64,000 nt of DNA from positions 930,001-994,000 of the forward strand of contig NZ_CP088923.1 in the NCBI RefSeq assembly GCF_021545845.1, written 5' to 3'. Both the position numbers and the translations under genes were made by a program. The stretch's first letter is position 1; every line of letters begins with the position of its first letter. Positions 2,622-36,713 of this stretch are shown piece by piece. The notes below the pieces were generated by a model. The model was not told the DNA's origin and searched no databases. It was given only the letters and a program-made list of their open reading frames with translations. This DNA comes from Rhodanobacter thiooxydans (lineage in GTDB: Bacteria > Pseudomonadota > Gammaproteobacteria > Xanthomonadales > Rhodanobacteraceae).

Positions 2622-3404
2622 ATGAACAGCCGCCTCGACGCCTGGCAACTGCATGGCCACACCGCCCTGATCACCGGCGCCAGCAAGGGCATCGGCTACG
2701 CCACCGCGCGCGAGCTGGCCGGGCTGGGCGCCGACCTGCTGCTGGTGGCGCGCGACGAGGATTATCTCGAACAGGTGCGGGTGGAGCTGGCCGACGAGTT
2801 CGCCGGCGTCGAGGTGCTGGCGTTCGGCGCGGACCTGACCGAGGCGGAGGACCGCCTGGCGGTGTTCGACTGGATCGCCGACCTCGGCGCGCCGGTGTCG
2901 CTGCTGGTCAACAACGCTGGCGGCAACCAGCCCGGGGCCACGCTGGACTACCGCGAGGACGACTACCGCGCGATCTTCGAGCAGAACCTGTTCTCCGCCT
3001 TCGAAATGTGCCGGCTGGCGCATCCGCAGCTGGTGCAGCACGCGAACGCGGCGATCGTCAACGTCGGTTCGGTCTCCGGCATCACCCACGTGCGCACCGG
3101 TTCGCCCTACGGCATGAGCAAGGCGGCGCTGCACCAGCTCACCCGCAACCTGGCCGCCGAATGGGCGGTGGACGGCATCCGCGTCAACGCGGTGGCGCCG
3201 TGGTACATCCGCACCCAGCGCACCGATCCGGCGCTGGCCGATGCCGACTACCTGGACGAGGTGCTCGAGCGCACCCCGTTGGAGCGCATCGGCGAGCCGG
3301 AGGAAGTGGCCGCGGCGATCGCCTTCCTGTGCCTGCCGGCGGCCAGCTACATCACTGGCCAGGTGCTGGCGGTGGACGGCGGGTTCCTGAACTACGGCTT
3401 CTGA
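2622..3404 (+). CDS. SDR family NAD(P)-dependent oxidoreductase
   Basis: Classical short-chain dehydrogenase of 260 residues, the usual length. The cofactor-binding glycine motif is TGASKGIG (18-25), followed by NNAGG (97-101), the active-site serine S150 and the catalytic pair Y163/K167 in YGMSK. The C-terminal [13 protein letters not shown] is the standard family ending. Overall it resembles the tropinone-reductase-like branch, whose substrates are varied, so the substrate cannot be told. The stop codon TGA is also the first triplet of the hairpin of the dispersed repeat at 3402-3570. Confidence 0.9.
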
Positions 3405-3570
3405 GCGGTTGTGATTTTTTCAACCTCTCAGGCTGGCCACGGCGAGGGCATGGCGAGGGTATGGATGCCCGAGTTGAGGCAACGCAGGAGCAGTTGCCCG
3501 AGGGCCGGGCGTGTACCGGACTCGCGATCGAAGAAAACCACAGGATGTGGTTTTCTTCACAAGCTCTGAG
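3402..3570. repeat. stop-codon hairpin element, copy A
   Basis: This 169-bp copy begins with the SDR stop codon: TGAGCGGTTG (3402-3411) pairs with CAACCTCTCA (3421-3430) around a TGATTTTTT loop, with one mismatch. It continues with one module containing GAGTTGAGGCAACGCAGGAG and ends with the hairpin GAAGAAAACCACA / TGTGGTTTTCTTC followed by CACAAGCTCTGAG. Copies B, C and D are at 6736, 36462 and 34269. The right end has been hit by the insertion sequence at 3570. Confidence 0.85.
3567..3569. repeat. target-site duplication TGA, left
   Basis: TGA directly before the left inverted repeat of the IS, matched by TGA at 4786-4788. The repeated triplet belongs to the right terminus of repeat copy A. 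Confidence 0.65.
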
Positions 3571-4785
3571 AGGGTGTCGACAAAATAAAAATAGGCTGCG
3601 AACATGCCGTAAACAGGCACTTTGGGCGGGTTTGAATGAGCAAGACCGAGGCGACGCCGGTGAAACGAGGGCGCAAGCCGAGCCTGAACGCAGGGCATGT
3701 CACCGCCTTGCGTACCATCGTGAAGGCATCGCCGCACGCGACCTTGGACGAGGTGACCGGCGCGTTGCGTGAGCAAACGAAGGTCAAGGTCTGTTCGGCC
3801 ACGGTGCGCAAGGCGCTGCGGCAGGCCGGTATCCACAAGGCGAAGCCTGCCATCGCCAAGCCGGAACCCACGCCGGCGGATGGTGCACCCCAACGCTATG
3901 GCTATACGGCAAGGCATCGGCGCAAGGAAGGTGCCAGCGGCATGAACACCGACCTGACCGACGCGGAATGGGCGTGGGTGGCTGACTTGTTCGAGCGCGA
4001 TGGCGGGCAGGGGCGGCCCGTAAGCTATGCGCGCAAACGCGTCGTCGACGCCTGTTGTTATGTGGTGCGCACGGGGTGCGCCTGGCGCTTGCTGCCCAAG
4101 AGCTTCCCGCCGTGGGCCAGTGTCCACAAGACGTTCAGCCGCTGGGCGAAGGCCGGTTTGTTCGAAGCCATGCATGATCGTCTGCGCGCCCAGTGGCGGG
4201 AACGCGAAGGCCGCAAGCCCGAGCCCACGGCCGGCGTGATCGACGCACAAAGCAACCGCAGCAGCGCGCAAGGCGGCATGACTGGACGCGACGCCGGCAA
4301 GAAGGTCAAGGGTCGCAAACGCCACCTGTTGGTGGACACGCTCGGGTGGTTGTTGGCGGTGAGCGTGACCGCCGCCAGTGTGCAGGATCGCGATGCCGCG
4401 CCCGCCGTTGTGGATCAAGCCGTTGCCAAGGTTCCTGGACTGCTCAAGCTCTATGCCGACGGCGCCTACGCCGGCAAGTGCAAGGAAGGCATCGAGGCCG
4501 CGCACCCGAGCTTGAAGGTCGAGATCGTTCGCCACCCGCAAAACCGCAACACGGGATCGTGGCAGGGTGCACAGCTTCCGCTACTGCCCGACCCCGTGGC
4601 CAAAGGCTTCGTCGTCCTTGCCAAACGCTGGGTTGTTGAGCGCACCCATGCCTGGAACGAGCGCGCCCGGCGACTGATGGTGCACCATGATCGCTCCGCA
4701 TGGGCGCCGGTGGCTTGGGTCTGGTTAGTCGAAGCGCGTATCCCCGCCACTAGACTCGCAAGCTGATTGTTTTGTCGACACCCTC
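3570..4785 (+). mobile_element. IS5-family insertion sequence (IS1031-like)
   Basis: A 1216-bp element with inverted ends GAGGGTGTCGACAAAA at 3570 and its complement ending at 4785. It is flanked by TGA at 3567-3569 and 4786-4788, consistent with the 3-bp TNA duplication of the IS1031 group (a reading as a 5-bp CTGAG duplication is also possible). Excising it restores CACAAGCTCTGAG, the normal right end of repeat copy A. It carries one intact transposase. Confidence 0.88.
3636..4766 (+). CDS. IS5-family transposase with N-terminal HTH domain
   Basis: A 376-residue DDE transposase that is intact and probably active. Residues 105-340 form the standard IS5-type core: a start-like LTDAEWAWVADLFE region, then catalytic D203 (GVIDAQS), D275 (YADGAYAG) and E335 (RWVVERTHAW). 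Residues 1-70 add a helix-turn-helix region (RGRKPSLNAGHVTALR through SATVRKALRQAGIHK) resembling IS630-type DNA-binding domains, joined by a linker rich in Ala, Pro and Lys. Many IS5 transposases would begin at M103 here, so an internal start could give a shorter form. The start used is 66 bp inside the left end of the element. Confidence 0.9.
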   Translation: MSKTEATPVKRGRKPSLNAGHVTALRTIVKASPHATLDEVTGALREQTKVKVCSATVRKALRQAGIHKAKPAIAKPEPTPADGAPQRYGYTARHRRKEGASGMNTDLTDAEWAWVADLFERDGGQGRPVSYARKRVVDACCYVVRTGCAWRLLPKSFPPWASVHKTFSRWAKAGLFEAMHDRLRAQWREREGRKPEPTAGVIDAQSNRSSAQGGMTGRDAGKKVKGRKRHLLVDTLGWLLAVSVTAASVQDRDAAPAVVDQAVAKVPGLLKLYADGAYAGKCKEGIEAAHPSLKVEIVRHPQNRNTGSWQGAQLPLLPDPVAKGFVVLAKRWVVERTHAWNERARRLMVHHDRSAWAPVAWVWLVEARIPATRLAS

Positions 4786-4797
4786 TGAGCGGCTGCC

Positions 4798-5742
4798 TCA
4801 GAACTCGGCCTCGTGCTCCTCGGCGGCAAAGCCGACGGTCACCGCGCCTTCGCCCACGTTGACCATGCCGGTGATGCTCATCGGCGCCGCCATCAGTTCG
4901 ACGCCGCATTCCGCACAGGCCTGGCGCAGCTCGGTATAGCCCGGCAAGTGGGGCAGCATCTCCAGGTCGCCGCCATAGCTGACGCAGACCACCGGCACCA
5001 GCAGGCCAGCGCGCACCCGCCGCGCCACGTAGCCGAACAGTGCCTCTGCGCCCTGGTCGAAACCGCGCACCTTGCCGACCGGGCTGGTCTCGCCGCGGAA
5101 GCAGCGCAGGATGGGCTTGATGTCCAGCGCGGTGCCCACCATCGCGCTGAGCAGGCTGACGCTGCGGTCGCCGCGCTTCTTGATGCGGTTGCGCAGGTGA
5201 ATCAGGTCGCGCGGCAGCATGTAGCCGTAGCTGTGGTTGGCGATGTGCACCAGGCGTTCGCGGATCGTCGACGGCGGCTCGTTGGCGGCGATCAGCCGGG
5301 CCGCTTCGCAAACGGCTGGGGCGGCGCCGGTGAAGACGTTGCCGGTGTCCACCACGCGCATCATGAACGGACCGGTCACGCCGGCCTTCTCGCGCACCTG
5401 GCGGTAGTTCTTCAGGATCGCGAAGCTGGCCCTGTTGACGTTCTCGTTGATCGGGCTGCGGGTGGCGGTGATGGTCAGGCAGAACACGCAATCCTGCTCC
5501 AGCACCAGCTTTTCCAGGAACAGCTTCTGCACCTCTTCCACCGGGCAGGGCTCGGTCTCCGCCGAGTGGCTGCGGTGGCCCAGGCGGCGGTCGATGAAGC
5601 GCTGGATCTCGGCCGCGTTGCGGTCGTCCATGAAGACCTCGCCGTCCAGCCGCACGGTAATCGGCATGATCGCGACACGGTGCTCCTGCAGGAATTCCTG
5701 CGGCAGGTCGCAGGATGCATCGATTGCCAGGCCCATCCTCAT
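4798..5742 (-). CDS. DegV family protein (fatty-acid binding)
   Basis: A 314-residue cytoplasmic protein of the DegV fold, which binds a fatty acid and in Gram-positive bacteria presents it to fatty-acid kinase (FakB role). Visible family features are the opening GLAIDASCDLP, a conserved hydroxyl/Thr region around LTITATRSP (about 92-100), VVDTGNVFTGAAP and a final VNVGEGAVTVGF. No FakA-like kinase is nearby, so the partner is unknown. It is convergent with the SDR gene, with repeat A and the IS in between, and divergent from the AMP nucleosidase gene. Confidence 0.85.
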   Translation of the reverse strand: MRMGLAIDASCDLPQEFLQEHRVAIMPITVRLDGEVFMDDRNAAEIQRFIDRRLGHRSHSAETEPCPVEEVQKLFLEKLVLEQDCVFCLTITATRSPINENVNRASFAILKNYRQVREKAGVTGPFMMRVVDTGNVFTGAAPAVCEAARLIAANEPPSTIRERLVHIANHSYGYMLPRDLIHLRNRIKKRGDRSVSLLSAMVGTALDIKPILRCFRGETSPVGKVRGFDQGAEALFGYVARRVRAGLLVPVVCVSYGGDLEMLPHLPGYTELRQACAECGVELMAAPMSITGMVNVGEGAVTVGFAAEEHEAEF

Positions 5743-5946
5743 CGCGTGACCCCCCGATCATCAATGGCAGGGGAAACATAGCATGGTGGCTGCTGTAGCG
5801 GCATTCGCCGATGGTCGCGCGCGGTGGCACGCCGGTGCGGCAGCGTCGTCGCCGGGTGCGTGCGAACAGGCTCTAAGATGGCGCGACTGATCTGGCATCC
5901 CGCCGGCGTGGCGTCGCCGGCAACCCCACCGGGCATCGCTTCACTC

Positions 5947-6738
5947 ATGAAAAGCAAACAGGAAATCGTCTCCAACTGGCTGCCGCGCTACACCGGCGTG
6001 CCGCTCGAGCAGTTCGGCGAGCACATCCTGCTGACCAACTTCGGCCACTACGTGGAGTTGTTCGCGCAATGGCACGGCGTGGAGGTACAGGGGCGCGACC
6101 GGCCGATGCCGAGCGCCACCGCCGACGGCATCACCCTGATCAACTTCGGCATGGGCAGCCCCAACGCCGCCACCATGATGGACCTGCTCAGCGCGATCGG
6201 ACCGAAGGCCGCGCTGTTCCTCGGCAAGTGCGGCGGGGTCAAGAAGAAGAATCAGCTCGGCGACCTGGTGCTGCCGATCGCGGCGATCCGCGGCGAGGGC
6301 ACCAGCAACGACTACCTGCTGCCGGAGGTGCCGGCGTTGCCGGCGTTCCAGCTGCAGCGCGCGGTCTCCACCATGATCCGCGACCTCGGCCACGACTACT
6401 GGACCGGCACGGTGTACACCACCAACCGGCGCGTGTGGGAGCACGACGAGGCGTTCAAGGACTACCTGCGGCGTACCCGCTGCATGGCGGTGGACATGGA
6501 AACCGCGACCATCTTCGCCGCCGGCTTCGCCAACCGCATCCCGTGCGGCGCGCTGCTGCTGGTTTCCGACCAGCCGATGATCCCGGAAGGCGTGAAGACC
6601 GAGGCCAGCGACCGCCGGATCACCTCGGCATTCGTCGAGGCGCATATCCGCATCGGCATCGAGGCACTCAAATTGGTGCGCCGCAACGGCCGCAGCGTGA
6701 AGCACCTGCGTTTCGAGGCCGAGGCGGAGACGGACTGA
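5947..6738 (+). CDS. amn: AMP nucleosidase, short form
   Basis: Predicted to hydrolyse AMP to adenine and ribose 5-phosphate in purine salvage. The 263-residue protein is a PNP/UDP-phosphorylase-fold enzyme without the N-terminal domain of the longer E. coli Amn. Family signs are INFGMGSPNAATMMDLL, GKCGGVKKKNQLGDLVLP and the catalytic-type MAVDMETATIFA stretch. The start at 5947 begins with MKSKQEIVSNW, as in short AMP nucleosidases; in-frame ATGs at 5824 and 5878 would add arginine- and proline-rich residues that look non-coding. The TGA stop is the first triplet of repeat copy B. Confidence 0.85.
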   Translation: MKSKQEIVSNWLPRYTGVPLEQFGEHILLTNFGHYVELFAQWHGVEVQGRDRPMPSATADGITLINFGMGSPNAATMMDLLSAIGPKAALFLGKCGGVKKKNQLGDLVLPIAAIRGEGTSNDYLLPEVPALPAFQLQRAVSTMIRDLGHDYWTGTVYTTNRRVWEHDEAFKDYLRRTRCMAVDMETATIFAAGFANRIPCGALLLVSDQPMIPEGVKTEASDRRITSAFVEAHIRIGIEALKLVRRNGRSVKHLRFEAEAETD

Positions 6739-6986
6739 GAGGTTGTGATTTTTTCAACCTCTCAGACCGGCCACCGCGAGGGCATGGCGAGGGCATGGAT
6801 GCCCGAGTTGAGGCAACGCAGGAGCAGTTGCCCGATGCCCGAGTTGAGGCAACGCAGGAGCAGTTGCCCGCTGGCCGGACATGAAACAGTCACGCCAGTG
6901 ACTGTTTCATGTGACCGAGTCCGGGCGCGTACCGGACTCGCGATCAAAGAAAACCACAGGATGTGGTTTTCTTCACAAGCTCTGAG
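6736..6986. repeat. stop-codon hairpin element, copy B (full length)
   Basis: This 251-bp copy is the most complete. It starts with the amn stop codon in a perfect 10-bp hairpin (TGAGAGGTTG / CAACCTCTCA, loop TGATTTTTT). Next come two 36-bp units (6799-6870), a perfect 15-bp stem at 6879-6893/6898-6912 (ACATGAAACAGTCAC), a 9-bp stem CGAGTCCGG/CCGGACTCG at 6916-6940, and the final AGAAAACCACA/TGTGGTTTTCT hairpin at 6948-6972, ending CACAAGCTCTGAG. Unlike the other copies it lies between two genes on the same strand. Confidence 0.9.
6799..6870. repeat. two 36-bp tandem units inside repeat copy B
   Basis: Two identical 36-bp units (6799-6834 and 6835-6870) begin ATGCCCGAGTTGAGGCAACG. Each has a short internal inverted repeat GGCAAC/GTTGCC. 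Copy C at 36462 also has two units, with slight differences in the second; copy A has one. Confidence 0.9.
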
Positions 6987-7083
6987 CCCATCGGACGCCG
7001 CGGGGCTCGCGTGGAATCGCGTGGCCACCGCTATCGGGGGCGGATCCGGCACAAAACGCAAGAAGTTTCGTGTTTTGAAATAG

Positions 7084-7111
7084 TTGACAAGATGTAAACA
7101 CCGCGTAATAC
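7084..7111 (+). promoter_or_regulatory. sigma-70 type promoter of the TonB receptor gene
   Basis: A perfect -35 box TTGACA (7084-7089) is followed after 16 bp by TAATAC (7106-7111), five of six matches if read as a TATAAT variant with shifted bases. The surroundings are AT-richer than the rest of the window. Transcription would start near 7118 and leave a leader of about 230 nt. The stretch 6987-7083 between repeat B and this promoter holds no gene. Confidence 0.7.
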
Positions 7112-7117
7112 AGTAGC

Positions 7118-7348
7118 CGTCGGAACGCCGGCTGCATCGGCCGAACCGCGGGACGCGTGGACGACCACCAAGCCGCCTCGGCAAGGTCTGCCAGTGATGC
7201 AAGCTCGCACAGAGTGTTATTTGCCTGTTAGTATCGGCCCGGTCTGGGTTCCCCGGGTCAGGGGTTCGGCAACCCGGTCGGATGGTGTTTCGGGGCAGGA
7301 CTCATGCAGATTCCGGCTTACGACAAAAATTAATCGGAGGGTGTTTTC
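7118..7348 (+). other. long 5' leader of the TonB receptor mRNA
   Basis: About 230 nt without a gene. It contains overlapping short inverted repeats, CCGGGT (7253-7258) with ACCCGG (7272-7277) and the tighter GGGTT-CGGC-AACCC inside it, which cannot form at the same time. A good Shine-Dalgarno GGAGG lies at 7336-7340, eight bases before the ATG. No recognised riboswitch consensus was seen. Confidence 0.4.
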
Positions 7349-10288
7349 ATGAAACTTGGGGTCACAAAACTTTCTTCATCAGTCCGCCTCGCGCTTTCGT
7401 TGGGTGCGGTCATCGCAGTAGGTACCTCGGGCACGGTCTTCGCCCAGGACACGGGTAGCCAGGACACGAGCAAGCCCAGCCAGGAAAAGGCCCAGACACT
7501 GCAGACCGTCGTGGTCACCGGCTCGCACATCCGTCGCGTGGACCTGGAAACGTCCAACCCGGTCGTGACCATCGATGCCGCGCAGATCAAGGCCACCGGC
7601 AAGCTGACGCTGGGCGACATCGTGCAGCAGCTGCCGGCGGTGACCGGCGGCAACATCAACCCGCAGGTCAACAACAGCGGCGGCACCGGCGGCAGCAGCA
7701 TCGGCCTGCGCGGCCTGGGCGCTCAGCGCACCCTGATCCTGATCGACGGCAAGCGCATCATCAACAGCGATCCGAACTCGATCCCGGCCGACATGATCGA
7801 GCGCATCGAAGTACTGACCGACGGCGCCTCCTCGGTGTACGGCTCCGACGCGATCGGCGGCGTGGTCAACTTCATCCTGAAGAAGGACTACCAGGGCGCC
7901 CAGTTCTCGGCGACCTACGGCGAGTCCGACCACAATGATGGCGCTACGACCGGTTACCGGTTCACGTTCGGCCAGACGTCCGACAAGGGCAGCATCATGG
8001 GCGGCGTCGACTACAACAAGACCGAAGCTGTGCTGGCCAAGAACCGCGACTTCTCCAAGAACGCGGTGTCGATCTACGGCAGCAGCCAGACCCCGATCTA
8101 CAGCTACGTCGGTGGCTCCAGCTTCCCGGCCTACGGGCGCGTCCAGTTGCCGACCCAGTATCGGGGCACCGGCCCGGGACAGTACAACTGCAAGAACGTG
8201 GCGCTGAATCCGGGCGCCAGTGGCCAGAACATCGCCACCGACTACCACTGCTTCACCAATGCCGACAAGTACAACTATGCGGCGGTCAACCTGATCCAGA
8301 CCCCGCAGGAGCGCACCAGCCTGTGGCTGAAGGGCACCTACAACCTGGGCGACCACGTCCAGGCCTACATGGACGCGTACCACAACAAGACCAGCTCGGG
8401 CTTCCAGCTGGCCCCGGCGCTGCTGGGCAGCCTGTACGGTGCGGTGATCTCCAAGGATGCGTACTACAACCCGTTCGGCCGGGAGTATTCGGCGGCCGGT
8501 CTGGACTACCGTGCACGCCTGGTGTCCGCCGGCAGCCGCGCGGCCAACTACGGCACCACCACCGACCAGATCCACACCGGTTTCAAGGGTGACTTCAACC
8601 TGCTGAACCACGACTGGAACTGGGACGTGGGCATGAGTTACGGCCACTTCTCGCAGCAGACCATCACCCGCGGCCTGCCGAACCAGGACAAGATCAACAA
8701 GGACCTGGGTCCGTCGCGTCTGGATGCTGCCTCCGGCAAGGTGGTTTGCAATTCTGGCGCGGCCGGCTGCATGCCGTTCAACCCGTTCAATCTGTTCGAC
8801 CCGAACTCGGTGGCGGCCCTCCAGGCGGCCGCGGTGCCGGCGATCAGCAACCAGTTCAACATCGAGCGCGTGTACTCGGCCGACGTCAACGGCGGCGTGT
8901 TCGATCTGCCGGCCGGTACCGTGCAGTTGGCCGCGGGCGCTTCCTACCGCAAGGAGTACACCCGCGCGGAAATCGATCCGCTGCTGCTGATCGATCCGTC
9001 CACCGGCAACTGCACCCTGGGCAGCCAGTGCAGCTCGCCGCTGCGTGGCGGCTACAACGTGAAGGAGGCCTACGCCGAGGTGTTCGTGCCGATCCTGACC
9101 GACATGCCGTTCGCACAGTCGCTGAACGTCACCATCGGTGACCGCTACTCGAAGTACAGCACCTTCGGCAGCACCAACAACAAGAAGTTCGCGGTGGAAT
9201 ACCGCCCGATCACCGACCTGCTGCTGCGCGGCACGGTGTCCGAGGTGTTCCGTGCGCCGACCATCGGCAACGTCTTCGGCGCGCCGATCAGCGACGCACC
9301 GAAGCTCAGCAGCGACCCCTGCGACCACATCACCACCGCCAATCCGGCCTGCGTGGGCGTGCCGACCGATGGCAGCTTCGTCAACCAGGACGCGGCGCTC
9401 GGCCAGCAGATCAAGGGCATTTCCTCCGGCTCGAAGTACGCCGGGTTCCCGCTGGGGCCGGAGAAGGGCAAGTCGTTCGACCTCGGCCTCGTCTACTCGC
9501 CGAGCTACGTGCCGGGGCTGTCGCTCAGTGTCGACGCGTGGCACCTGTACCTGAAGGACACGATCTCCTCGATCGGCGCGCAGACCGTGCTCGACCTCTG
9601 CTACGCCGGCCTCAACCAGTACTGCCCGCTGGTCAGCCGCTTCCCGACCGGCAGCGCCAACCCCGGCCAGATCGCGCAGATCATCGAGCCGACCGGCAAC
9701 CTGGGCCGCACGGACGTGGCGGGTGTCGACTTCTCGGCTCGCTACAAGCTGCCGGAATTCTCGTTCGGCAAGTTCGTGGTGGGCTTGGATGGGACCTACA
9801 TGTCGCGCTATGACCAGCAGACCGCGCCGGGCACCAGTGCCAACACGGTGTTCCACGACGCCGGCCACTTTATGCCGTTCGGCTCCAGCCAGGCGTCGAC
9901 CTGCCCGAGCGGTGGCGGCGTGTGCCTGTTCCCGCGCTGGCGCGGCAACGGCTTCGTGAACTGGGACCTGGGCGATTGGAGCGCTTCCTGGCGCATGCGC
10001 TACATCGGCGCGTTCCGCAACGGCTCGAAGAGCCCGTCGCAGGACACCAACCCGGTGCAGAACCTGCCGGGCGTGGTGTTCAAGTACGGCGCGACGATCT
10101 ACAACGACGTGTCGATCGGCTACAACATCGAACAGTTCAACACGCGCCTGGACTTTGGCGTGAACAACCTGTTCGACAAGCAGCCGCCGTTCCTGTACGC
10201 CAACAACACCCTCAACGCCAACACCGATCCGAGCGACTTCGACCTGCAGGGCCGCTACTTCTGGGGCCGCGTGACGGTGTCGTTCTGA
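7349..10288 (+). CDS. TonB-dependent outer-membrane receptor
   Basis: A 979-residue outer-membrane transporter. A signal peptide ends after VFA (about residue 32), then a glutamine/lysine-rich spacer, a TonB-box-like LQTVVVTGS near 50-58 and a plug domain to about residue 180 (IDAAQIKATGKLTLGDIVQQ, SIGLRGLGAQRTLILIDGKR, ASSVYGSDAIGGVVNFIL). The remainder is a 22-strand-type barrel that ends WGRVTVSF with the terminal Phe needed for barrel insertion. Several paired cysteines in loops suggest extracellular disulfides. The plug type is that of the many Xanthomonadales receptors of unknown ligand. It has its own promoter and terminator and is followed by sulfotransferase genes, which suggests a modified peptide or saccharide ligand, but this is inference. 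Confidence 0.93.
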   Translation: MKLGVTKLSSSVRLALSLGAVIAVGTSGTVFAQDTGSQDTSKPSQEKAQTLQTVVVTGSHIRRVDLETSNPVVTIDAAQIKATGKLTLGDIVQQLPAVTGGNINPQVNNSGGTGGSSIGLRGLGAQRTLILIDGKRIINSDPNSIPADMIERIEVLTDGASSVYGSDAIGGVVNFILKKDYQGAQFSATYGESDHNDGATTGYRFTFGQTSDKGSIMGGVDYNKTEAVLAKNRDFSKNAVSIYGSSQTPIYSYVGGSSFPAYGRVQLPTQYRGTGPGQYNCKNVALNPGASGQNIATDYHCFTNADKYNYAAVNLIQTPQERTSLWLKGTYNLGDHVQAYMDAYHNKTSSGFQLAPALLGSLYGAVISKDAYYNPFGREYSAAGLDYRARLVSAGSRAANYGTTTDQIHTGFKGDFNLLNHDWNWDVGMSYGHFSQQTITRGLPNQDKINKDLGPSRLDAASGKVVCNSGAAGCMPFNPFNLFDPNSVAALQAAAVPAISNQFNIERVYSADVNGGVFDLPAGTVQLAAGASYRKEYTRAEIDPLLLIDPSTGNCTLGSQCSSPLRGGYNVKEAYAEVFVPILTDMPFAQSLNVTIGDRYSKYSTFGSTNNKKFAVEYRPITDLLLRGTVSEVFRAPTIGNVFGAPISDAPKLSSDPCDHITTANPACVGVPTDGSFVNQDAALGQQIKGISSGSKYAGFPLGPEKGKSFDLGLVYSPSYVPGLSLSVDAWHLYLKDTISSIGAQTVLDLCYAGLNQYCPLVSRFPTGSANPGQIAQIIEPTGNLGRTDVAGVDFSARYKLPEFSFGKFVVGLDGTYMSRYDQQTAPGTSANTVFHDAGHFMPFGSSQASTCPSGGGVCLFPRWRGNGFVNWDLGDWSASWRMRYIGAFRNGSKSPSQDTNPVQNLPGVVFKYGATIYNDVSIGYNIEQFNTRLDFGVNNLFDKQPPFLYANNTLNANTDPSDFDLQGRYFWGRVTVSF

Positions 10289-10321
10289 TTGACTGGACAG
10301 CACTGAGTAGCTGAAGCTGAC

Positions 10322-10357
10322 GAGCCGCGCGGGCAACCCGCGCGGCTCTTCTTTTTT
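10322..10357 (+). terminator. Rho-independent terminator after the TonB receptor gene
   Basis: A perfect 12-bp stem GAGCCGCGCGGG / CCCGCGCGGCTC with a CAA loop (10322-10348) is followed by TTCTTTTTT. It lies 34 bp after the receptor stop and 18 bp before the next gene. Confidence 0.92.
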
Positions 10358-12204: not shown

Positions 12205-12207
12205 TGC

Positions 12208-28818: not shown

Positions 28819-30423
28819 CTATTCCGACAGTGCCTGCTGGATCGCTTCCAGCCCGTACCCGCGCGTTTCGATACCGCTGCGCGCGAGCATCCAGCCGGCC
28901 AGCGCCATCGGCAGCGCGAGCAGCAGCGCCGACAGCATGAAGTGCTCGAACAGGCCGGCCACGCCGATCAGTGCGCCGAGGATGCCGCCGAATTTCGAGC
29001 CGCCGGCGATCAGCCCCGCGCCGGTACTGCGCAGGTGCACCGGGTAGATCTCCGCCGCGTACGGAATCAGCGTGGCGATCACCCCGCTGATGCACAGCAG
29101 CAGCGCCACCGTGCCTGCCGTGGTGAGCGCGGTCGAGCGCAGGTTGACCAGCGCGATGGCAAAGAAGAACAGCAGCGACAGCGCGGTCAGCGCGATGAAC
29201 AGCACCAGGCTGCGGATGCTGCTCCAGCGCTGGTAGGCCCACACCACCACGCCGATGCCGGGCAGGGCAATGATCGCCGAGCGCGCCAGCAGCGCCGCGC
29301 TGGCCTGCGCGTCGATGCCCAGCGTCACCAGGTTCGCCGGCAGCCACAGCAGGAAGCCGAAGTTCGCCAGGCCCCAGGCCACCGCGCATACCATCAGGCC
29401 CCAACTGATCGCCGCATGCCGGCCGCGCAGCAACTGGCGCATGCCGGTGCGTGCAGGTGCGGGCGACGGCGCGTGGGCGGCGTCGCCGGCAGGCGTGACG
29501 GCCACCGGCGCCACGCCGCCCGAGAAGCGCTGCAGTACTGCGCGTGCCTGCTGCTCCAGCCCGGCCAGGGCGAGGAAGCGCGGCGACTCGGGGATGTAGC
29601 GGTTGAGCAGGATGATCAGCGCGCCGGTGGGCAGGTTGAGCAGCCACAGCGAGCGCCAGCTCCACGCCGGCTCGAACAGGGCGGCGGCACCCGAGGCCAG
29701 CAGGTAGCCGGCCGAGGTGCCGACGCCGCCCAGCGCCACCAGCAGCCAGCCGCGGTGGCGGGTCGGGATGGTCTCGGCCATCAGGGTGAAGGTGATCGGC
29801 AGCATGCCGCCGGCGGCCGCGCCCATCATGAAGCACATCACCAGGTTCCAGCCGAAGCTCGGCATCGCGCCGCAGATCGCGGTGCCCATGAACATCAGCG
29901 CCGACAGCAGGATCGTCGCGCGGCGGCCGAACAGGTCGCCGAGCCGGCCCCACACGATCGAGCCGACCGCGGTGCCGGTCAGTGCCGACAGCGCCAGCCA
30001 GCCGGCGGTCGCGCCACTGATGCCGTACTCGGCCGACAGTCCGGGCATCACGAAGCCGATCGTGGCCGGCTTCATCACGTCCACCGCCAGCGCGATGGTC
30101 AGCACCGCCACCAGTTTCCAGTGCTCGCGGTTGAGCGGCACGTGGTCGGCGGCGTGGAACGGCAGCGGCTCGCGGTCGGGGTGCAGCGTGCGCCGCATCT
30201 GCTGCAGCCGCGGCATCAGGCCATAACCGGCGAGCAGCACGCCGAGCGGCACCAGCGCCATGCCGGCCAGCATCAGGTTGTCCATCGGCATGCCGGCGAG
30301 GCGGAAATGCATCGGCGCGGCCATCGCCAGCATCGGCAGATGCGCCAGCACGCCGGCGATCACCATGGCGCAGCCGAGCCAGAACGCCACCGGGTGGTGG
30401 AAGGTGAGGTCCCTCGAACGCAT
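28819..30423 (-). CDS. MFS transporter
   Basis: A 534-residue inner-membrane protein. Two hydrophobic segments (about 12-36 and 47-66) precede a standard 12-helix major facilitator core beginning near residue 100. The signature between helices 2 and 3 is GRLGDLFGRRATIL, and IPESPRFLALAG after helix 6 is typical of sugar-porter or aromatic-acid transporters. GTAVGSIVWGRLGD supports the same group. The substrate cannot be told. The extra N-terminal pair of helices is unusual for the superfamily. It converges with aceE across repeat 28660-28768. Confidence 0.85.
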   Translation of the reverse strand: MRSRDLTFHHPVAFWLGCAMVIAGVLAHLPMLAMAAPMHFRLAGMPMDNLMLAGMALVPLGVLLAGYGLMPRLQQMRRTLHPDREPLPFHAADHVPLNREHWKLVAVLTIALAVDVMKPATIGFVMPGLSAEYGISGATAGWLALSALTGTAVGSIVWGRLGDLFGRRATILLSALMFMGTAICGAMPSFGWNLVMCFMMGAAAGGMLPITFTLMAETIPTRHRGWLLVALGGVGTSAGYLLASGAAALFEPAWSWRSLWLLNLPTGALIILLNRYIPESPRFLALAGLEQQARAVLQRFSGGVAPVAVTPAGDAAHAPSPAPARTGMRQLLRGRHAAISWGLMVCAVAWGLANFGFLLWLPANLVTLGIDAQASAALLARSAIIALPGIGVVVWAYQRWSSIRSLVLFIALTALSLLFFFAIALVNLRSTALTTAGTVALLLCISGVIATLIPYAAEIYPVHLRSTGAGLIAGGSKFGGILGALIGVAGLFEHFMLSALLLALPMALAGWMLARSGIETRGYGLEAIQQALSE

Positions 30424-30515
30424 GCATCCGCCCCTGACATACAGGCGACCAGCATACCGCGGTGGACGCGCACCGCTGCGCCGCTCCGCGTGCGCGTTCT
30501 AAGGGTGCGCGGCGC

Positions 30516-30845
30516 TCACTCGTCGTCGTTGCGGAACACGCGGCGCAGCAGCAGGAACGCCCCGAGCGTACCGGCCACGACCGCCGCGGTGGCCAGCGGG
30601 TGGCGGTTTACCTGGCGGCGCAGGCGGCGGTATTGATAGTTCGCCTCGTCGGCGAAATCCTCGGCTGCGTGCGACAGCTGACGGCCGTACGAATCGCGGC
30701 GCCGGCTCCAGCGCGAGCCCAGCTCGTGGCTGCGTTCCAGCAGGGTATGCGCGTGGTCGGCAGCGCCGTCGGCGTAGCGGTGCGCCTGTTGGCCGGCGCG
30801 TTCGCCGGCATCGCGGAGCCGGCTCTCGATATCGTGGTGGCGCAT
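30516..30845 (-). CDS. DUF883/ElaB-like inner-membrane-anchored protein
   Basis: A 109-residue protein with a long charged amphipathic region (residues 1-80, His/Arg/Glu-rich, probably coiled coil) and one C-terminal membrane segment HPLATAAVVAGTLGAFLLL. The build matches the ElaB/YqjD (DUF883) group, tail-anchored proteins that associate with ribosomes in stationary phase in E. coli. The start at 30845 has a strong Shine-Dalgarno GAGGAGA upstream. Family membership is suggested by layout more than by clear motifs. Confidence 0.65.
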   Translation of the reverse strand: MRHHDIESRLRDAGERAGQQAHRYADGAADHAHTLLERSHELGSRWSRRRDSYGRQLSHAAEDFADEANYQYRRLRRQVNRHPLATAAVVAGTLGAFLLLRRVFRNDDE

Positions 30846-30935
30846 GGGGTGTTCTCCTCGGCGGGCTTTCGAGGCTGCCAGCGCCATCGTGAGCGACGCG
30901 TAAACAGCGCCGCGTTCGTCGCGCCCGGTTCGGCC

Positions 30936-32789
30936 TCAGGGCCTCAGCGGGGCGATCCGCGACAGCGTCGACACGCCGCGTTCGTCGAACGCCTCGACCG
31001 CCACGACGTAGGCCACGCCCTTGTTCAATGCGTGCAGGGTCAGTCGCGCCGGCTGGTCGGCGAAACGCTGGTACGTCTCGTGCAGGCGATCGGCGGCCAG
31101 CCCCCAGCGCACGTTGTAGCCGACCGCGCCGGGCACCGGTTGCCAGACGACCTCGGCATCGCGGGTGTCGGCCAGGCGGCGGGCGGAAACCAGCACTGGC
31201 GCCGGCGGCGGCGGGCCATCGGCGTTGCCGAACACGCGCAGGTCGGAGATCGCCAGCGTGCGTGCGCCGACGTGGCCGTGCACGTAGCGCAGGTAGCGGA
31301 TGCGTGCCGGATGGTCGAGTTCGAGATAGGCGTTCGGCCGGTCGCGGGTTTCGTGCGAGAGGTCGGCCAGGGTGGTCCATCGCCTGCCGTCCGCCGAGCC
31401 GTCGAGGCGGAACCGGGTGACGATGTCGGGCGCGTCGCCGTAGCGGCCGGAGCGGTAGTCGGCGTAGTCCACCTGCACGGCGCGCACCGTGCGCGGGCCG
31501 CCCAGGTCGAGTGTGAGCGTCTGTCCGGCGGTGTTGCTTGCCGCCGCCCAGAACGTGCGCGGGTTCTCGTCGGTGACGGCGGAGGGCGGGTGCTCCGGCA
31601 GTTGCGACGAAGCGTGCGCGGACTTGCGGTACGACAGCAGCATCCAGCCGGTGAAGGTGCTTTCGCCCTCGCCCAGCGCATGGTCGGGCATGCGCTGCGG
31701 GAAATCGCCGAAGCGCGTGTCGACCCACATCTGGCCGTCCGCGTGGAAGCCGGCGGGGAACAGTTCGATGCGTCGCTCGAACGTCCAGTTCAGGCCCACC
31801 CACATGGTGCCGCTGTTCCACCAGTTGCCGTACGCGTCCTGGAAAGTGGAGCCGTGCCCGGCGCCGGTGGCGAAGCCGCCGGGCTTGTAGCCGACCGGGT
31901 TGTACGGTGCGTAGGTGAACGGTCCCAGCGGGTTGCTGCCGACGTAAACGCCGGTGGCGTACGCGTTGTACTCGGTGCCGGGCGCGGCGTACTGCAGGTA
32001 GTAGCGGTCGCCGTGGCGGTTCATCCAGGCGCCCTCGAGAAAGGGCGCGATGCGGGTGTCGGCGTGGTCCTGCCCGAAGCGTTCCCAGCCATGCGCGGCG
32101 GGGTCGGCCTTGAGCAGCGCGGCCGGCTTGGTGACGAAGGCCATCCGCTTGCCTTCGCCTTCGTCGGCGCGGTCCAGCGCCAGGTCGATCTGCGCGCCGT
32201 ACAACGGAAAGACGTTGGAGGAATCCCAATACAGATAGGTCCTGCCGTCCTCGTCGCGGAACAGGCCGGGGTCCCATGGACCGGGCGGCAGCTCGCCCGC
32301 TTTCATTTCGCTCTCGTGCCCGGCCCACACCGCGCCGGGTACCGCCGGCAGCAGGCGCGTCCAGAACTGCCAGCGGCCATGCGCAGGATCGGTCGAGTAC
32401 AGCAGCGGGCGCGGCTCCATCGCCGACGACATCAGGAACAGCTTGCCGTCGGCGACCAGGGTGGCCGGCGCCACCGGGCCGTCGAACGGCCATCGGTCCG
32501 GCTGCACGAACTGCCAGTGCAGCAGGTCGGTCGAACGCCAGTAGCCGTCGGCCAGGGTCAGGAACAGGTAGTACGCATTGCCGTAGCGCACGAACGCGGG
32601 GTCCGCGCCGGTGCGGTACGAGATGCCCTGGTTCATCTGCTCGTAGTTGTAGCGGTAGTCGATATCCAGCGGATTGGCCCAGGTGCGCCCGCCGGTGGCG
32701 GCGGGCGCGGCCCGCGCGCCGGCCGCGGCCAGCAGGATCGCGAGCACGATCGAGCGCAGCAGGCGTGTGCAGGGTATCGACGCTGACAT
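30936..32789 (-). CDS. secreted GH43-like glycoside hydrolase with discoidin and FN3 domains
   Basis: A 617-residue exported protein with a signal peptide ending ARA (about residue 27). Residues 35-375 form a five-bladed GH43-type domain (ADPAFVRYGNAYYLF, WDPGLFRDEDGRTYLYW, FLEGAWMNRHGDRYYL), residues about 400-515 a F5/8 type C domain (HPPSAVTDENPRTFWAA, LTLDLGGPRTVRAVQVDYAD), and residues 525-617 a fibronectin type III domain. GH43 enzymes cleave arabinan, xylan or related side chains; the exact activity is open. The carbohydrate-binding tail fits degradation of plant cell-wall polymers. No transport genes for sugars adjoin. Confidence 0.84.
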   Translation of the reverse strand: MSASIPCTRLLRSIVLAILLAAAGARAAPAATGGRTWANPLDIDYRYNYEQMNQGISYRTGADPAFVRYGNAYYLFLTLADGYWRSTDLLHWQFVQPDRWPFDGPVAPATLVADGKLFLMSSAMEPRPLLYSTDPAHGRWQFWTRLLPAVPGAVWAGHESEMKAGELPPGPWDPGLFRDEDGRTYLYWDSSNVFPLYGAQIDLALDRADEGEGKRMAFVTKPAALLKADPAAHGWERFGQDHADTRIAPFLEGAWMNRHGDRYYLQYAAPGTEYNAYATGVYVGSNPLGPFTYAPYNPVGYKPGGFATGAGHGSTFQDAYGNWWNSGTMWVGLNWTFERRIELFPAGFHADGQMWVDTRFGDFPQRMPDHALGEGESTFTGWMLLSYRKSAHASSQLPEHPPSAVTDENPRTFWAAASNTAGQTLTLDLGGPRTVRAVQVDYADYRSGRYGDAPDIVTRFRLDGSADGRRWTTLADLSHETRDRPNAYLELDHPARIRYLRYVHGHVGARTLAISDLRVFGNADGPPPPAPVLVSARRLADTRDAEVVWQPVPGAVGYNVRWGLAADRLHETYQRFADQPARLTLHALNKGVAYVVAVEAFDERGVSTLSRIAPLRP

Positions 32790-32836
32790 GCGCCGAGCAT
32801 GCCCCGGCGCTGGTGGCCGCGCAACGCGGGCCTGCT

Positions 32837-33754
32837 TCAGTAGATCTCGCCCACGCAGCAGCGCAGGCTGCCGCCGGCCTTCTCGATCTCGTCCAGTGCC
32901 ACCGCGCCCACTGCGAAACCGTAGCCGGCCAGCGCTTCGCGCTGGGCGTCGGTAAGCGAACGGGCGGCGCGGGCGCTCATCCAGACGCGGTGCCCGGAGA
33001 GGGTGATCGCATTACCGGCGAAGGCCTGTTTCTGCGCTGGGCTCAGCCAGACTGCGCGGTCGCCACAGGCGGTGGCGATCGCCCGCACCGCAGCCGGGTC
33101 GCGGAAGCCGTCGGCGGCGATGATCGCGGCACGGCCGGCCAGCAGGGTCAGCACCACGTTGGTGTGGTATTCGTTCTCGGCCAGCTCGAAGCAGTAGGTC
33201 AGGCGCAGGCCGAACGCCTGGTGCATCGCCTCGGCGCCGGCCGGGTCGCAGCGCTCGCTGAGGCCGCAGTAGCCGACGCCGCGGGCACGGTCGATGACCA
33301 GCGAGCCGGTCAGTTCGGCGACCAGGTCGCTGCGACCGGACAGGTCGATCTCCTCATAGCCCAGCACGTCGCCGAAGAAGCCGCGGATGTCGGCGCGCGC
33401 GGCCTCGCGCTGGCGTACCGGGTGGCGCATGCGGCCGACGATCAGTCGTCCCGGCGCGGTGGCGAACACGTTGTTCGGAAACACCGCGTCGGGCGTCGCC
33501 GGGTCGCCGGGAAAGGTGATCACCGGCACGTCCGCGCGCAGCGCCTGCGCCAGCGCGCCGTGCTGGGCCAGCGCCCTCAGTGGGTCGACCGCCAGGCCCA
33601 GGTCCATGTAGCGGTTGTCGCGCGCCGATTCCTGCGCCAGGGCGAATTCGGCCGGCGCCACCATGAATGCGGCCCGCGCGGTCGCCGCCGCTCCCGGCAA
33701 TGGCGCCAGTGTGGCAAATGCTTCGAGGAATTCGCTCGGTGAAGTGGTGATCAT
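32837..33754 (-). CDS. arginine deiminase-related hydrolase (CtlX-like)
   Basis: A 305-residue protein of the amidinotransferase/guanidine-modifying fold. Visible family motifs are FPNNVFA near 75-81, the catalytic His in ENEYHTNVVLTLL and a Cys near the end in SLRCCVGEIY, the position of the nucleophile in DDAH and arginine deiminases. It best fits the CtlX group proposed to hydrolyse citrulline or a related compound. The start MITTSPSEFLEAF at 33754 was chosen because an upstream extension is Lys/Pro/Arg-rich and unlike the family. It diverges from the DUF3247 gene across 214 bp. Confidence 0.78.
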   Translation of the reverse strand: MITTSPSEFLEAFATLAPLPGAAATARAAFMVAPAEFALAQESARDNRYMDLGLAVDPLRALAQHGALAQALRADVPVITFPGDPATPDAVFPNNVFATAPGRLIVGRMRHPVRQREAARADIRGFFGDVLGYEEIDLSGRSDLVAELTGSLVIDRARGVGYCGLSERCDPAGAEAMHQAFGLRLTYCFELAENEYHTNVVLTLLAGRAAIIAADGFRDPAAVRAIATACGDRAVWLSPAQKQAFAGNAITLSGHRVWMSARAARSLTDAQREALAGYGFAVGAVALDEIEKAGGSLRCCVGEIY

Positions 33755-33968
33755 GGCGCAGCTCAATACAGGGGCGTGAAAGCATATCCGCTGCGGGTTC
33801 TTGCCGCGCGGCGGCTTCCATCTGTCGCCTGCAGCCAGATCCGTTACCGCGCGGTGCATGGCGTTCGCCGTCCCGCCTGCCGTTCAGCTGGCAGATAGAC
33901 GAATTGACGCGCGCTTGCCATGTGGCCAACCACCCTGATGCCCGATCACGTCACGCGAGGCAAATGCC

Positions 33969-34271
33969 ATGGGCAGAGCAGCGGAACGCGTCTACACCGA
34001 CCGGGCCAGCATCCAGCAGCTCGAATCACTGGTGGAGGAACTACCGGCCAACGGCCATGTGGTGCTGCTGCTCAAGGACGGCAGCAGCTGCGATGGCGTG
34101 GTCGTCACGCGACCGAACGTGCAGATGTTCCGCGACGCCGACGAGCGCGAAGGCATCAACGCCACCGTGCGGCTGGAACGGCCCGACGTGCCGGAATGGA
34201 GCCAGCAGGTCTGGCTTGACCAGATCGTGCGGGTCGAGCACCTCGACTCGTCCATGGCCGGCGAAAACTGA
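33969..34271 (+). CDS. DUF3247 Sm-like protein
   Basis: A 100-residue protein matching the small family typified by Xanthomonas XC5848, whose structure has an Sm-like fold. The beta-rich core includes GHVVLLLKDGSSCDGVVVTRP and QQVWLDQIVRVEHL, resembling Hfq-type strands. The function is unknown; RNA binding is an inference from the fold. The Shine-Dalgarno GAGG lies 10 bp before the ATG. The TGA stop opens the hairpin of repeat copy D. Confidence 0.82.
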   Translation: MGRAAERVYTDRASIQQLESLVEELPANGHVVLLLKDGSSCDGVVVTRPNVQMFRDADEREGINATVRLERPDVPEWSQQVWLDQIVRVEHLDSSMAGEN

Positions 34272-34349
34272 GAGATTGCGAATTTCTCAAGCTCGAAGCC
34301 CGACCACTCGTGAAGAAAACCACGGGAAGTGTTTTCTTCACGAGCTCAG
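34269..34349. repeat. stop-codon hairpin element, copy D (short)
   Basis: This 81-bp copy starts with the DUF3247 stop codon. TGAGAGATT and AATTTCTCA pair around GCG with one G-T pair (34269-34289). The final hairpin GTGAAGAAAAC / GTTTTCTTCAC is present, then CGAGCTCAG. The middle modules of copies A-C are absent, and the sequence has diverged, so this looks like an old or minimal version. Confidence 0.75.
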
Positions 34350-34402
34350 GGCGCAGGCGGGTTGCCGTTCCAGGTCTGCAATCGGGTGAAGCCGTCCGCG
34401 CT

Positions 34403-34952
34403 TCACTGCTCGCTGCCGACGCCGTGGTGCACGAAGAACAGCCCGCCGGGGTCGTACCTGCGCTTCGCCGCGGCGAGGCGCGGAGAGTTGCCGCCCCAGA
34501 ATCCCCGCTGCCAGTCGTGCAGGAAGTAGTCGCTTTCCGAGACGTAGGAGCCGGCTTCGGGCGCCACGGCACGCAGCGCCTTCATCGTCTTGTCGACGGC
34601 CGCCGCCATGCGCCGCGCCATGGCCAGGTCCGGTTTCGCACCCGGCATGCCGGGAAAGGCGGGGTCGTCACCGCTGGCGCTGATGGCCGTCGGCGGTGAC
34701 GATCTCCGCCTCCAGCAGGTTGGACGCCGCCGTGCCCCAGTGCTTGGAGAGGCTGCCGAAGCCACCGCTCTGCACCAGTCCGGCCACGCCCACCGTGGTG
34801 CAGCCGCCGCCCTGCACGTAGCGGCCGCCGCGGCTGGTCACGGCGTCGTAGGCGTCGATCCACATCGCGCCCGCCTGCACGCTTGCCGCCGCCTGTGGCG
34901 CCAGATGGCCGGCGCAGCCTTGCGGCACGAAGGCGTCGTGCAGGTTCACCTG
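34403..34952 (-). pseudogene. FAD-linked oxidase remnant (PCMH start plus BBE end)
   Basis: Two pieces of one gene type are joined in different frames. From about 34952 to 34683 the frame reads HDAFVPQGCAGHL, AGAMWIDAYDAVTSRGGRY and GGFGSLSKHWGTAASNLLEA, the FAD-binding half of a vanillyl-alcohol-oxidase/berberine-bridge type enzyme. From about 34680 to 34403 another frame reads AMARRMAAAVDKTMKALRAV, ESDYFLHDWQRGFWGGNSPR and KRRYDPGGLFFVHHGVGSEQ, the C-terminal BBE domain. The middle part, roughly 250-300 residues, is missing. The true start is also lost where the sequence meets the LytTR remnant. Confidence 0.8.
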
Positions 34953-34964
34953 GTTCAGGTGGCG

Positions 34965-35144
34965 CTGGATCCGGCGCGCTTCGTACGGGTGCATCGCGGC
35001 TACTTCGTCAACCTCGATTATCTGGCCGAGATCGAGCCGCTGGAAACCGGCGACGCGCGTCTGCAGATACGCGGCGGCGTGAAGATTCCCTGCAGCCGCC
35101 GCCATCGCGCCGCGCTGCGCGAACGCTTCGGCCGGCGGGATTGA
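34965..35144 (+). pseudogene. LytTR DNA-binding domain remnant
   Basis: An open stretch of 59 codons ending in TGA reads LDPARFVRVHRGYFVNLDYL then GVKIPCSRRHRAALRERFG. This is the C-terminal half of a LytTR domain, as in AlgR/LytR response regulators (HRGYFVN and SRR are the typical marks). No receiver domain or start lies upstream; that sequence is the FAD oxidase remnant on the other strand. The gene was cut by the same rearrangement. Confidence 0.78.
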
Positions 35145-35214
35145 ACACGGACGGTTGCACGGCGGCGGCCGCTCGTTCCAAGCTAGCCGCCTGTTCCCGC
35201 CTGGCAGGTCGCCG

Positions 35215-35949
35215 ATGAATCGCGCTTTTCTCCGTTATGCCCCACTGGCGTTCTGCGCCGCCTGGCTGCTGGCCGGCTGCTCGCCCCAGGGTGGCGCGCC
35301 GGCACCGACGGCGGAGCAGCAGCAGGCCCAGTCGCAGACGGCCGACGCGGCGCGCAACCTCGACACCTACCGCCAGCTGCTGCGCATCCGCAACGACGAG
35401 ATGGCGGTGTCGATGGGCAAGGACATCGTCAAGCGGTTTCCGGACAGCGCCGCGGCGAAGGAGGTGCTGCAGACCCTGCCGGCGATCGAGCAGCGCTACA
35501 CCGCGGCCAGCGAGAAGAACCGACTGGCCGGGCTGTGGTTGTACCAGGTGGCGCCGATGGCCGGCGGCACGCAATCTACCGCCACCATCGAGAACAGCCA
35601 GCCCGCCAGCGGCGAGCGCGTGCGGCTGGTGCTGCGCCGGCACACCGAGTGGGGCCAGAGCGTGTTCCTGTACGGCAGCAAGCCCGGCTTCGTCTGCCGC
35701 GGCAACTGCACCATCGCCGGCACCGCCGACGGCAAGCCGGTGCGGATCAAGGCGTTTGCGCCGTCCACCGGCGAGCCGGCGCTGATGATCCGCGACGACA
35801 ACGGCTTCATCGCGATGCTGCGCAAGGCGAAGAAAATTACGCTCGACGTCACCCTGGTCGATGGCGAGAAGAAGCAGAGCCTGGTCTACGAAGTGGGCGG
35901 CTTCGACCCGGCCAAATGGGGCGCTGTGGGCAAGCCGAAAAAGAAGTAG
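35215..35949 (+). CDS. lipoprotein of unknown function
   Basis: A 244-residue protein with a lipoprotein signal (lipobox LAGC, Cys at about residue 22) and a Gln/Ala-rich linker. The first half of the mature part is helical (LDTYRQLLRIRNDEMAVSMG), and the second half looks beta-rich with two cysteines in GFVCRGNCTIAG that could form a disulfide. I recognise no named family. It is followed 62 bp later by another lipoprotein gene, so both may be co-expressed. The start at 35215 was chosen because the signal peptide begins there. Confidence 0.75.
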   Translation: MNRAFLRYAPLAFCAAWLLAGCSPQGGAPAPTAEQQQAQSQTADAARNLDTYRQLLRIRNDEMAVSMGKDIVKRFPDSAAAKEVLQTLPAIEQRYTAASEKNRLAGLWLYQVAPMAGGTQSTATIENSQPASGERVRLVLRRHTEWGQSVFLYGSKPGFVCRGNCTIAGTADGKPVRIKAFAPSTGEPALMIRDDNGFIAMLRKAKKITLDVTLVDGEKKQSLVYEVGGFDPAKWGAVGKPKKK

Positions 35950-36011
35950 CGCGGTAAGCCGGGAGCCGCCTCGCGCGTTTGCATGTATCCCGCCCGATGG
36001 AGATGGATGCC

Positions 36012-36464
36012 ATGAAAACGCCACGCCTCATGCTCGCCGCCAGCCTGCTCGGCCTGCTCGGTGCCTGCTCCAGCGTGCCTTACGCCCAGCGCGTGGGCGA
36101 GCGCCAGGCCGCCTATGCCGCGGCGGTCGGTGCGCCGGTGAACAGCTTCCGCTTCTTCAACCTGTACTCGTGGGAGCCGCTCGGCGACACCGAGCTGGCC
36201 GTCTATACACGGCCGAACGAGGCGTGGCTGCTGGACCTCGGCGGCTGCCATGACCTGATGTTCGTCAACGCGATCGGGATCACCTCCAACGTCGGGCAGG
36301 TGATGGTTGGCTTCGACAAGGTGCTCACCGGGGCGCGCAATTTCCCCTGCACGATCATCCGCATCCGCCCGGTCGACGTGAAAAGCCTCAAGCTCGCGCA
36401 GCAGAAGCAGCGGCAGATCGAGAGTGCGGCGCGCGAAGGGCCGCCGCCCGCCGCGGCGCACTGA
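36012..36464 (+). CDS. lipoprotein, DUF6491-like
   Basis: A 150-residue protein with lipobox LGAC (Cys at about 19). The mature part contains FRFFNLYSWEPLGDTELAVY and a central AWLLDLGGCHDLMF, as in the small DUF6491 lipoproteins of Xanthomonadales, and a second Cys in NFPCTIIRIRPVD. Its role is unknown. The start MKTPRLMLAAS fits a signal peptide better than an ATG 33 bp upstream. The stop TGA is the first triplet of repeat copy C. Confidence 0.75.
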   Translation: MKTPRLMLAASLLGLLGACSSVPYAQRVGERQAAYAAAVGAPVNSFRFFNLYSWEPLGDTELAVYTRPNEAWLLDLGGCHDLMFVNAIGITSNVGQVMVGFDKVLTGARNFPCTIIRIRPVDVKSLKLAQQKQRQIESAAREGPPPAAAH

Positions 36465-36713
36465 GAGGTTGTGATTTTTTCAACCTCTCAGGCCGGCCAC
36501 GGCGAGGGGCATGGCGAGGGCATGGATGCCCGAGTTGAGGCAACGCAGGAGCAGTTGCCCGATGCTCGAGTTGAGGCAACGCAGGAGCTGCTGCCCGATG
36601 GCCGGACATGAAACAGTCACGCCAGTGACTGTTTCATGTGAGCGAGTCCGGGCGTGTACCGGACTCGCGACGGAAGAAAACCACAGGATGTGGTTTTCTT
36701 CACAAGCTCTGAG
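36462..36713. repeat. stop-codon hairpin element, copy C (full length)
   Basis: A 252-bp copy nearly identical to copy B. It has the 10-bp TGAGAGGTTG/CAACCTCTCA hairpin on the stop codon (36462-36490), two 36-bp units (the second begins ATGCTCGAGTTGAGGC and has CTGCTGCCCG), the ACATGAAACAGTCAC stem, a 10-bp GCGAGTCCGG/CCGGACTCGC stem and the last hairpin GAAGAAAACCACA/TGTGGTTTTCTTC. It lies between convergent genes. Confidence 0.9.

Follow-up and report, generated by a model that had tools for sequence, protein, structure and literature searches.

Several classes of mobile or repetitive DNA resemble the element described here. Insertion sequences (ISs) of the IS1031 group of the IS5 family make 3-bp TNA duplications and have GAG ends, and palindrome-associated transposable elements (PATEs), non-autonomous derivatives of IS200/IS605, are non-coding and end in hairpins. 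Bacterial miniature inverted-repeat transposable elements (MITEs), such as RUP with IS630-Spn1, Correia/NEMIS and MITEAba12, are characterized in the cited passages as short, non-coding sequences with inverted repeats, target duplications and structured transcripts (PMC2229807, PMC6382973). Repetitive extragenic palindromic sequences and bacterial interspersed mosaic elements (REPs and BIMEs) are palindromic extragenic repeats, described in the cited part of that work from Stenotrophomonas and Xanthomonas as well (PMC2817692), and REPs are noted as targets of ISs (PMC1525189, cited in part). Here we analyze a 64,000-nucleotide stretch of the Rhodanobacter thiooxydans genome (NZ_CP088923.1, positions 930,001 to 994,000; hereafter the window), in which a multi-hairpin repeat follows directly on the TGA stop codon of four genes. 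The association with stop codons is confirmed and genome-wide, and the element is MITE-like with a duplicated TGA. We consider it likely that it is a non-autonomous element whose insertion into CTGAG duplicates the 3-bp TGA, and that loss of harmful insertions leaves stop codons as its main harbor.

With bacterial MITEs the element shares its shortness, non-coding nature, terminal inverted repeats, target duplication and structure. Those MITEs have TA-type or 9-bp duplications in the cited passages, where a preference for stops goes unmentioned (PMC2229807, PMC6382973), whereas the element here has a TGA core, a fixed orientation and a location mostly on stops. It is likewise a palindromic extragenic repeat and an IS target, as REPs and BIMEs are, but by eye it has no GTAG-type head and it begins on a stop codon; no similarity was found to the loci fetched that resemble REP-associated tyrosine transposases (Y1 loci from six genomes). 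The TGA core and GAG ends are like those of the IS1031 group, as are those of an IS5-family IS in the window; the element differs in its strict orientation, and the searches described below found no transposase with its ends. PATEs, as generally known, are also hairpin-ended and non-coding, and differ from the element, which has inverted repeats, a C..G context on both sides of its core and no Y1 partner seen. The titles and abstracts of the open-licence literature, to which our search was confined (subscription literature lying outside its scope), yielded no repeat that inserts at stop codons.

Two DNA searches, one of which scored the best 40 of 94 candidates, and two pattern searches located the element at no fewer than 46 places in the 4.2-Mb genome, including a left-end remnant (3663593) and a copy without a readable left end (1565492). 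It is short, non-coding and multi-copy, with a length of about 75-300 bp (82-298 bp over the 45 listed copies). The left end coincides with the TGA stop of a called gene in 37 of 45 readable copies, and two further left ends are stops of genes that the caller missed, which brings the total to 39/45:

2230029: caller-missed MerR gene (PF13411) ending at an element copy
2235537: caller-missed 333-aa outer-membrane-like open reading frame, without a Pfam match and recognized by reading the frame, ending at an element copy

The first-pass annotation, made from the letters of the window, had set this genome-wide count beforehand as its test, and a majority of copies do begin at stops rather than elsewhere. 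Gene calling relied on codon scores, with training first on the window and later on 464 kb; the calls cover about 80% of bases, so that all site counts given here are approximate. A Pfam family match lies upstream (300 codons before the stop) in 9 of 10 stop-codon copies checked. With 368 genes called in the 464 kb, the 39 stop copies tag roughly 1% of genes. The setting between convergent genes that was noted for the window does not generalize, since the gene downstream of the 37 stop copies is on the same strand in 18 cases, on the opposite strand in 17 and not called in two. Among the six non-stop copies, 1738259 lies in an open frame that resembles an IS3-type orfA; 659853, 546581, 3087693 and 3563717 are intergenic or just past a gene; and 3563468 forms a tandem pair with 3563717, beginning at the right-hand CTGAG of the latter. 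Two copies (933402 and 3473394) share the same short variant and the IS5-family IS. Their differences are concentrated around the left hairpin, which hints that they moved together or underwent gene conversion.

In the window, sequence and Pfam matches confirm that the four copies begin exactly at the TGA stops of a short-chain dehydrogenase/reductase (SDR), an amn-like, a DUF3247 and a DUF6491 gene, as first annotated; the sequence of copy 1 had been misquoted and reads TGAGCGGTTG, not TGAGAGGTTG.

2622..3404, plus strand: SDR gene, stop is the target of copy 1 (gene call; Pfam, PF13561)
3402..3404, plus strand: SDR stop codon (TGA), serving as left target copy for copy 1 (two relatives have the uninterrupted TTC-TGA-GCG)
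3405..3566, plus strand: element copy 1, short variant with GCG...CTC ends and a hairpin array (sequence)
3567..3569, plus strand: right-hand TGA target copy of copy 1 (sequence)
3570..4785, plus strand: IS5-family IS of 1216 bp with ends GAGGGTGTCGACAAAA, within the right-hand TGA of copy 1
3636-4766: transposase of this IS
4786..4788, plus strand: TGA copy beyond the IS, followed by the genomic flank (sequence)
5824..6738, plus strand: amn-like gene (phosphorylase superfamily), stop is the target of copy 2 (gene call; Pfam, PF01048)
6736..6738, plus strand: TGA stop of the amn-like gene, left target copy of copy 2 (uninterrupted site in a relative)
6739..6982, plus strand: element copy 2 (sequence, DNA search)
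6983..6985, plus strand: right-hand TGA target copy of copy 2 (sequence)
33969..34271, plus strand: DUF3247 gene, stop is the start of copy 3 (Pfam)
34272..34347, plus strand: element copy 3, short and decayed (TGAGAGATTG), right-hand TGA lost
35979..36464, plus strand: DUF6491 gene with uncertain start codon, its stop being the target of copy 4 (Pfam)
36462..36464, plus strand: TGA stop of the DUF6491 gene, left target copy of copy 4 (sequence)
36465..36709, plus strand: element copy 4, full-length hairpin array, used as search query (sequence, fold)
36710..36712, plus strand: right-hand TGA target copy of copy 4 (sequence)

Of 17 loci compared with relatives, 11 have an uninterrupted counterpart with a single TGA, in some cases accompanied by small indels close by, and 10 of these 11 sites are stop codons; of the other six loci, one gave an uninformative 74% alignment and five gave no alignment through the junction. 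Occupied sites read TGA-[GAG...CTC]-TGA where empty sites have one TGA. The named relatives closest in the SDR gene belong to Rhodanobacter, and the SDR locus is uninterrupted in R. thiooxydans LCS2 and another Rhodanobacter. The amn locus is also uninterrupted in LCS2, and the second of these relatives reads TAA there; the empty site GAC-TGA-GCCCATCGGA corresponds to the filled site GAC-TGA-[GAGGTTG...AAGCTC]-TGA-GCCCATCGGA. At 3087693, which is not a called stop, two relatives have the empty sequence CTGAC, and the filled site reads TGAG on the left and TGAC on the right, which establishes TGA as the duplicated core and assigns the left G after it to the element. In the 6/33 copies with another base than G behind the right-hand TGA, the left side is TGAG nevertheless. 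The element ends in short, imperfect inverted repeats: its left terminus is GAGGTTGTGA, and the right one, read inward, is GAGCTTGTGA (9/10 equal). These uninterrupted sites bear out the mobility that had been suggested for the element, and they refute the idea that it brings its own stop, because the TGA is already present at empty sites. They likewise refute a vertically inherited, immobile structure in the 3' untranslated region (UTR), an explanation that we regard as hardly credible even though some sites look common to close genomes (copies 3 and 4 in genomes L201 and L193, not aligned). For copy 3, the apparent matching site in one relative (L201) is also occupied.

The same arrangement recurs in relatives. 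At least 30 of 45 genus genomes, this one included, contain a match at E<=1e-4 when the best 17 candidates per genome are scored. From roughly 150 listed places in sister genomes, 60 were fetched for their strong matches, and 56 had a readable left end (none for L197, L198, L200 and L244); 44 of these 56 copies start at a called-gene stop, a count in which not all copies are independent, as some pairs look like one site in two genomes. Some of the remaining 12 may begin at caller-missed stops (L203, L205 and L225 by frame reading). In the wider family, with the best three candidates per genome scored, 41 of 197 genomes match at E<=1e-5; 12 belong to this genus and many others are weak. The 30 places examined in other genera (17 + 13) provided 14 distinct readable copies of this type, the remainder being weak or partial matches, unreadable, or a sister variant, and 12 of the 14 begin at a called stop with the same layout and much diverged stem sequences. 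The element inserts precisely, at gene stops that were there beforehand and with a TGA on either side, in a fixed orientation with its left end after the TGA; it carries structured hairpins and is present in several genera. A sister element in two genomes of another genus resembles it in the hairpin core but differs in its ends (CAGGCTGCTGAAAAA ... TTTTTCAGCACCCTG); of its five copies, one (L391) starts directly after a called TAG stop.

The target itself was read from the 37 of 45 listed copies that begin TGAG. The base before the TGA is C in 34 of 37 copies versus 146/279 of all TGA stops. A G follows the right-hand TGA in 27 of the 33 copies in which that TGA is readable, versus 113/279 of all TGA stops, so that the target motif is CTGAG. 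Among called stops here it is the most frequent context (61 of 358); other contexts are common, yet little used by the element. The proposal that it targets stop codons was half right: the target is the motif, and a modest excess at stops persists when both strands are counted. An IS5-like DDE transposase would move the element, as suggested by the 3-bp core in CTnAG, the GAG ends and the use of the same TGA core by the IS5-family IS of this genome. Insertion at CTGAG with duplication of the TGA core would let the gene retain its own stop, and at a CTGAG stop would leave both the protein and the leader of the next gene whole, whereas insertions inside genes or promoters would be lost. With protein and leader intact, CTGAG stops would become the main safe harbor, where most survivors are found.

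The points that weigh against this explanation concern the size of the excess at stops, the mobilizing enzyme and the orientation. If all non-genic CTGAG sites are treated as equally tolerant, stops make up 32-35% of them and the chance of at least 37/45 is 7e-12 to 1e-10; once sites between divergent genes are excluded, and on the same assumption of equal tolerance, the stop share is 41-45% and P is 1e-8 to 3e-7. The match to stops is therefore beyond chance, as had been claimed, and lies so far above the expectation for non-genic sites that the selection step must be strong. This excess, with P about 1e-10 against all non-genic sites and stop starts in 39/45, 44/56 and 12/14 copies, could instead mean that the insertion machinery senses the ends of translation or transcription and is coupled to the stop codon, with CTGAG merely a favored context. 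The count changes within a safe zone, defined as the DNA behind a gene that keeps a distance of 40 nt or more from the next start. In this zone, 55-58 CTGAG stops compare with 4-10 same-strand CTGAG sites within 60-150 nt downstream, stops thus being 85-93% of same-strand CTGAG sites just after genes, and the observed ratio of 39:1 (the one being 546581; 3087693 is too near the next start to be counted) shows at most a slight excess (Fisher P 0.04-0.32). The opposite strand adds 9-16 CTGAG sites and two copies (659853 and 3563717); with both strands, stops are 71-81% of sites versus 39 of 42 copies (P 0.003-0.06), a residual excess that still favors coupling to the stop. Most of the excess is nevertheless removed by the same-strand count, the C..G context holds even against other TGA stops, non-stop copies likewise lie at TGA in the same orientation, and all 44 called stops in sister genomes are TGA, with no TAA or TAG (one further copy, L203, may read TAA). 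Recognition of stops as such therefore seems rather unlikely to us. A CTGAG directly behind a gene is in most cases a stop codon, and most of the match to stops follows from this. Motif targeting, combined with the loss of insertions that do harm, accounts for the greater part of the pattern, leaving a modest residual excess for selection or stop coupling.

No enzyme with the ends of the element was found in the own-genome end searches, the Y1 and Transposase_20 searches or the window IS, a genus-wide search of DDE transposases for these ends not having been made; nor did this non-exhaustive search find ends common to an autonomous transposon. Plasmid records gave no match at E<=1e-5. The IS within copy 1 belongs to the IS5 family (NF033580, PF13340/PF01609), and four near-identical copies were found in the genome, all in the right-hand TGA of the element, in the same orientation and with TGA on both sides, which shows the TGA core to be in use by an IS5-type enzyme of this genome as well. 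The ends of this IS look related to those of the element by eye yet differ. Matches to the IS are confined to 2 of 45 genus genomes (this one and another at 72% identity over part), so that it is unlikely to be the old mobilizer. The presence of a hairpin at each end, and an orientation fixed with respect to a short target word, would also fit single-strand transposition of the IS200/IS605 or REP type, with insertion 3' of CTGA, the right cleavage site CTGA and no true duplication. This mechanism is distinctly unlikely, because such a target would not need the G that is also preferred 3' of the core (27/33), because terminal inverted repeats are present and because the copies have no clear strand preference in relation to the chromosome halves (26:20, taking the origin to lie near base 1). 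The Y1 transposases examined also have other ends or lack similar repeats: the four IS200-type copies of this genome end in CTTAC, unlike the element, and Y1 loci in six genomes have no meaningful similarity to it. Precise insertion in fixed orientation at a short core could equally reflect RNA-guided or site-specific insertion of the IS110/IS1111 type with TGA as core. We judge this very improbable, as both IS110-type families of the genome (12 + 5 = 17 copies) differ from the element in ends and flanks, and a Transposase_20 search of seven genomes gave no match in the copy-rich genome G043.

Orientation is the remaining difficulty for a MITE moved by an IS5-like enzyme. With a pattern that leaves the middle target base open and allows one mismatch, left ends adjoin TGA and never TCA, and of 18 copies off called stops (6 own, 12 from relatives) 15 have TGA and the others TGC, AGA and TCG. 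An ordinary DDE transposase would be expected to insert in both orientations and does not explain one-way use of the near-symmetric CTnAG. The strict orientation, together with the hairpin array kept across genera, stands unexplained by our proposal.

Copy 4 as RNA has a fold of -133.5 kcal/mol (z -9.2). Covariation was assessed on a hand-drawn structure with 80 in-register rows (36 own, 44 from relatives; 23 of 103 rows dropped). Counted by cells, double-sided changes exceed the shuffle maximum in hairpin A (90 versus 35), hairpin B (18 versus 9) and hairpin C (5 versus 3); counted by pairs with a double-sided change, C lies above the shuffle maximum (4 versus 3), and A (9 versus 10) and B (4 versus 5) do not. 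Such compensatory changes could also stem from palindrome repair at the DNA level, and do not prove a role in RNA. Owing to variation among the modules, RNAalifold gave a poor consensus on a 99-row mixed alignment. A scan of copy 4, the single copy covered, detected no terminator-like site, which leaves unsupported the suggestion that the element brings a terminator. The right hairpin (for example, 36670-36705 in the window) has a loop that in most cases reads AGGA[AT]; of the 88 rows (of 99) that could be parsed, at least 82 contain GGA there. This loop resembles CsrA/RsmA sites; copies in two genomes of other genera (G124 and G156) have CACGACG-type loops without GGA, which leaves the idea only a lead. 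A window scan with Rfam found no gathering-score match to the element, and the vicinity of copy 4 gave only sub-threshold matches at E<=10. The scan did detect an S-adenosylhomocysteine (SAH) riboswitch elsewhere (RF01057, 58143-58218, minus strand). That the core is kept despite different ends in one genus suggests that the array and not the ends is retained. On a tentative and, to us, unlikely proposal, the element would be a family-wide mobile 3' UTR module, inserted one way at CTGAG stops, that places the same multi-hairpin array immediately behind the stop of about 1% of genes and acts in RNA, for example through mRNA 3' end protection or regulator binding to the GGA loop.

One-way orientation at a near-symmetric target poses a mechanistic puzzle. 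The element offers a simple, testable route by which mobile DNA may become nearly harmless, namely by duplicating the stop codon on which it lands. Integrators into tRNA genes restore their target, and duplication of the stop resembles this. Dozens of genes gain a standard structured 3' UTR in this way, and because the sites vary between close strains, any effect on the mRNA could be measured with natural pairs in which the element is present or absent.

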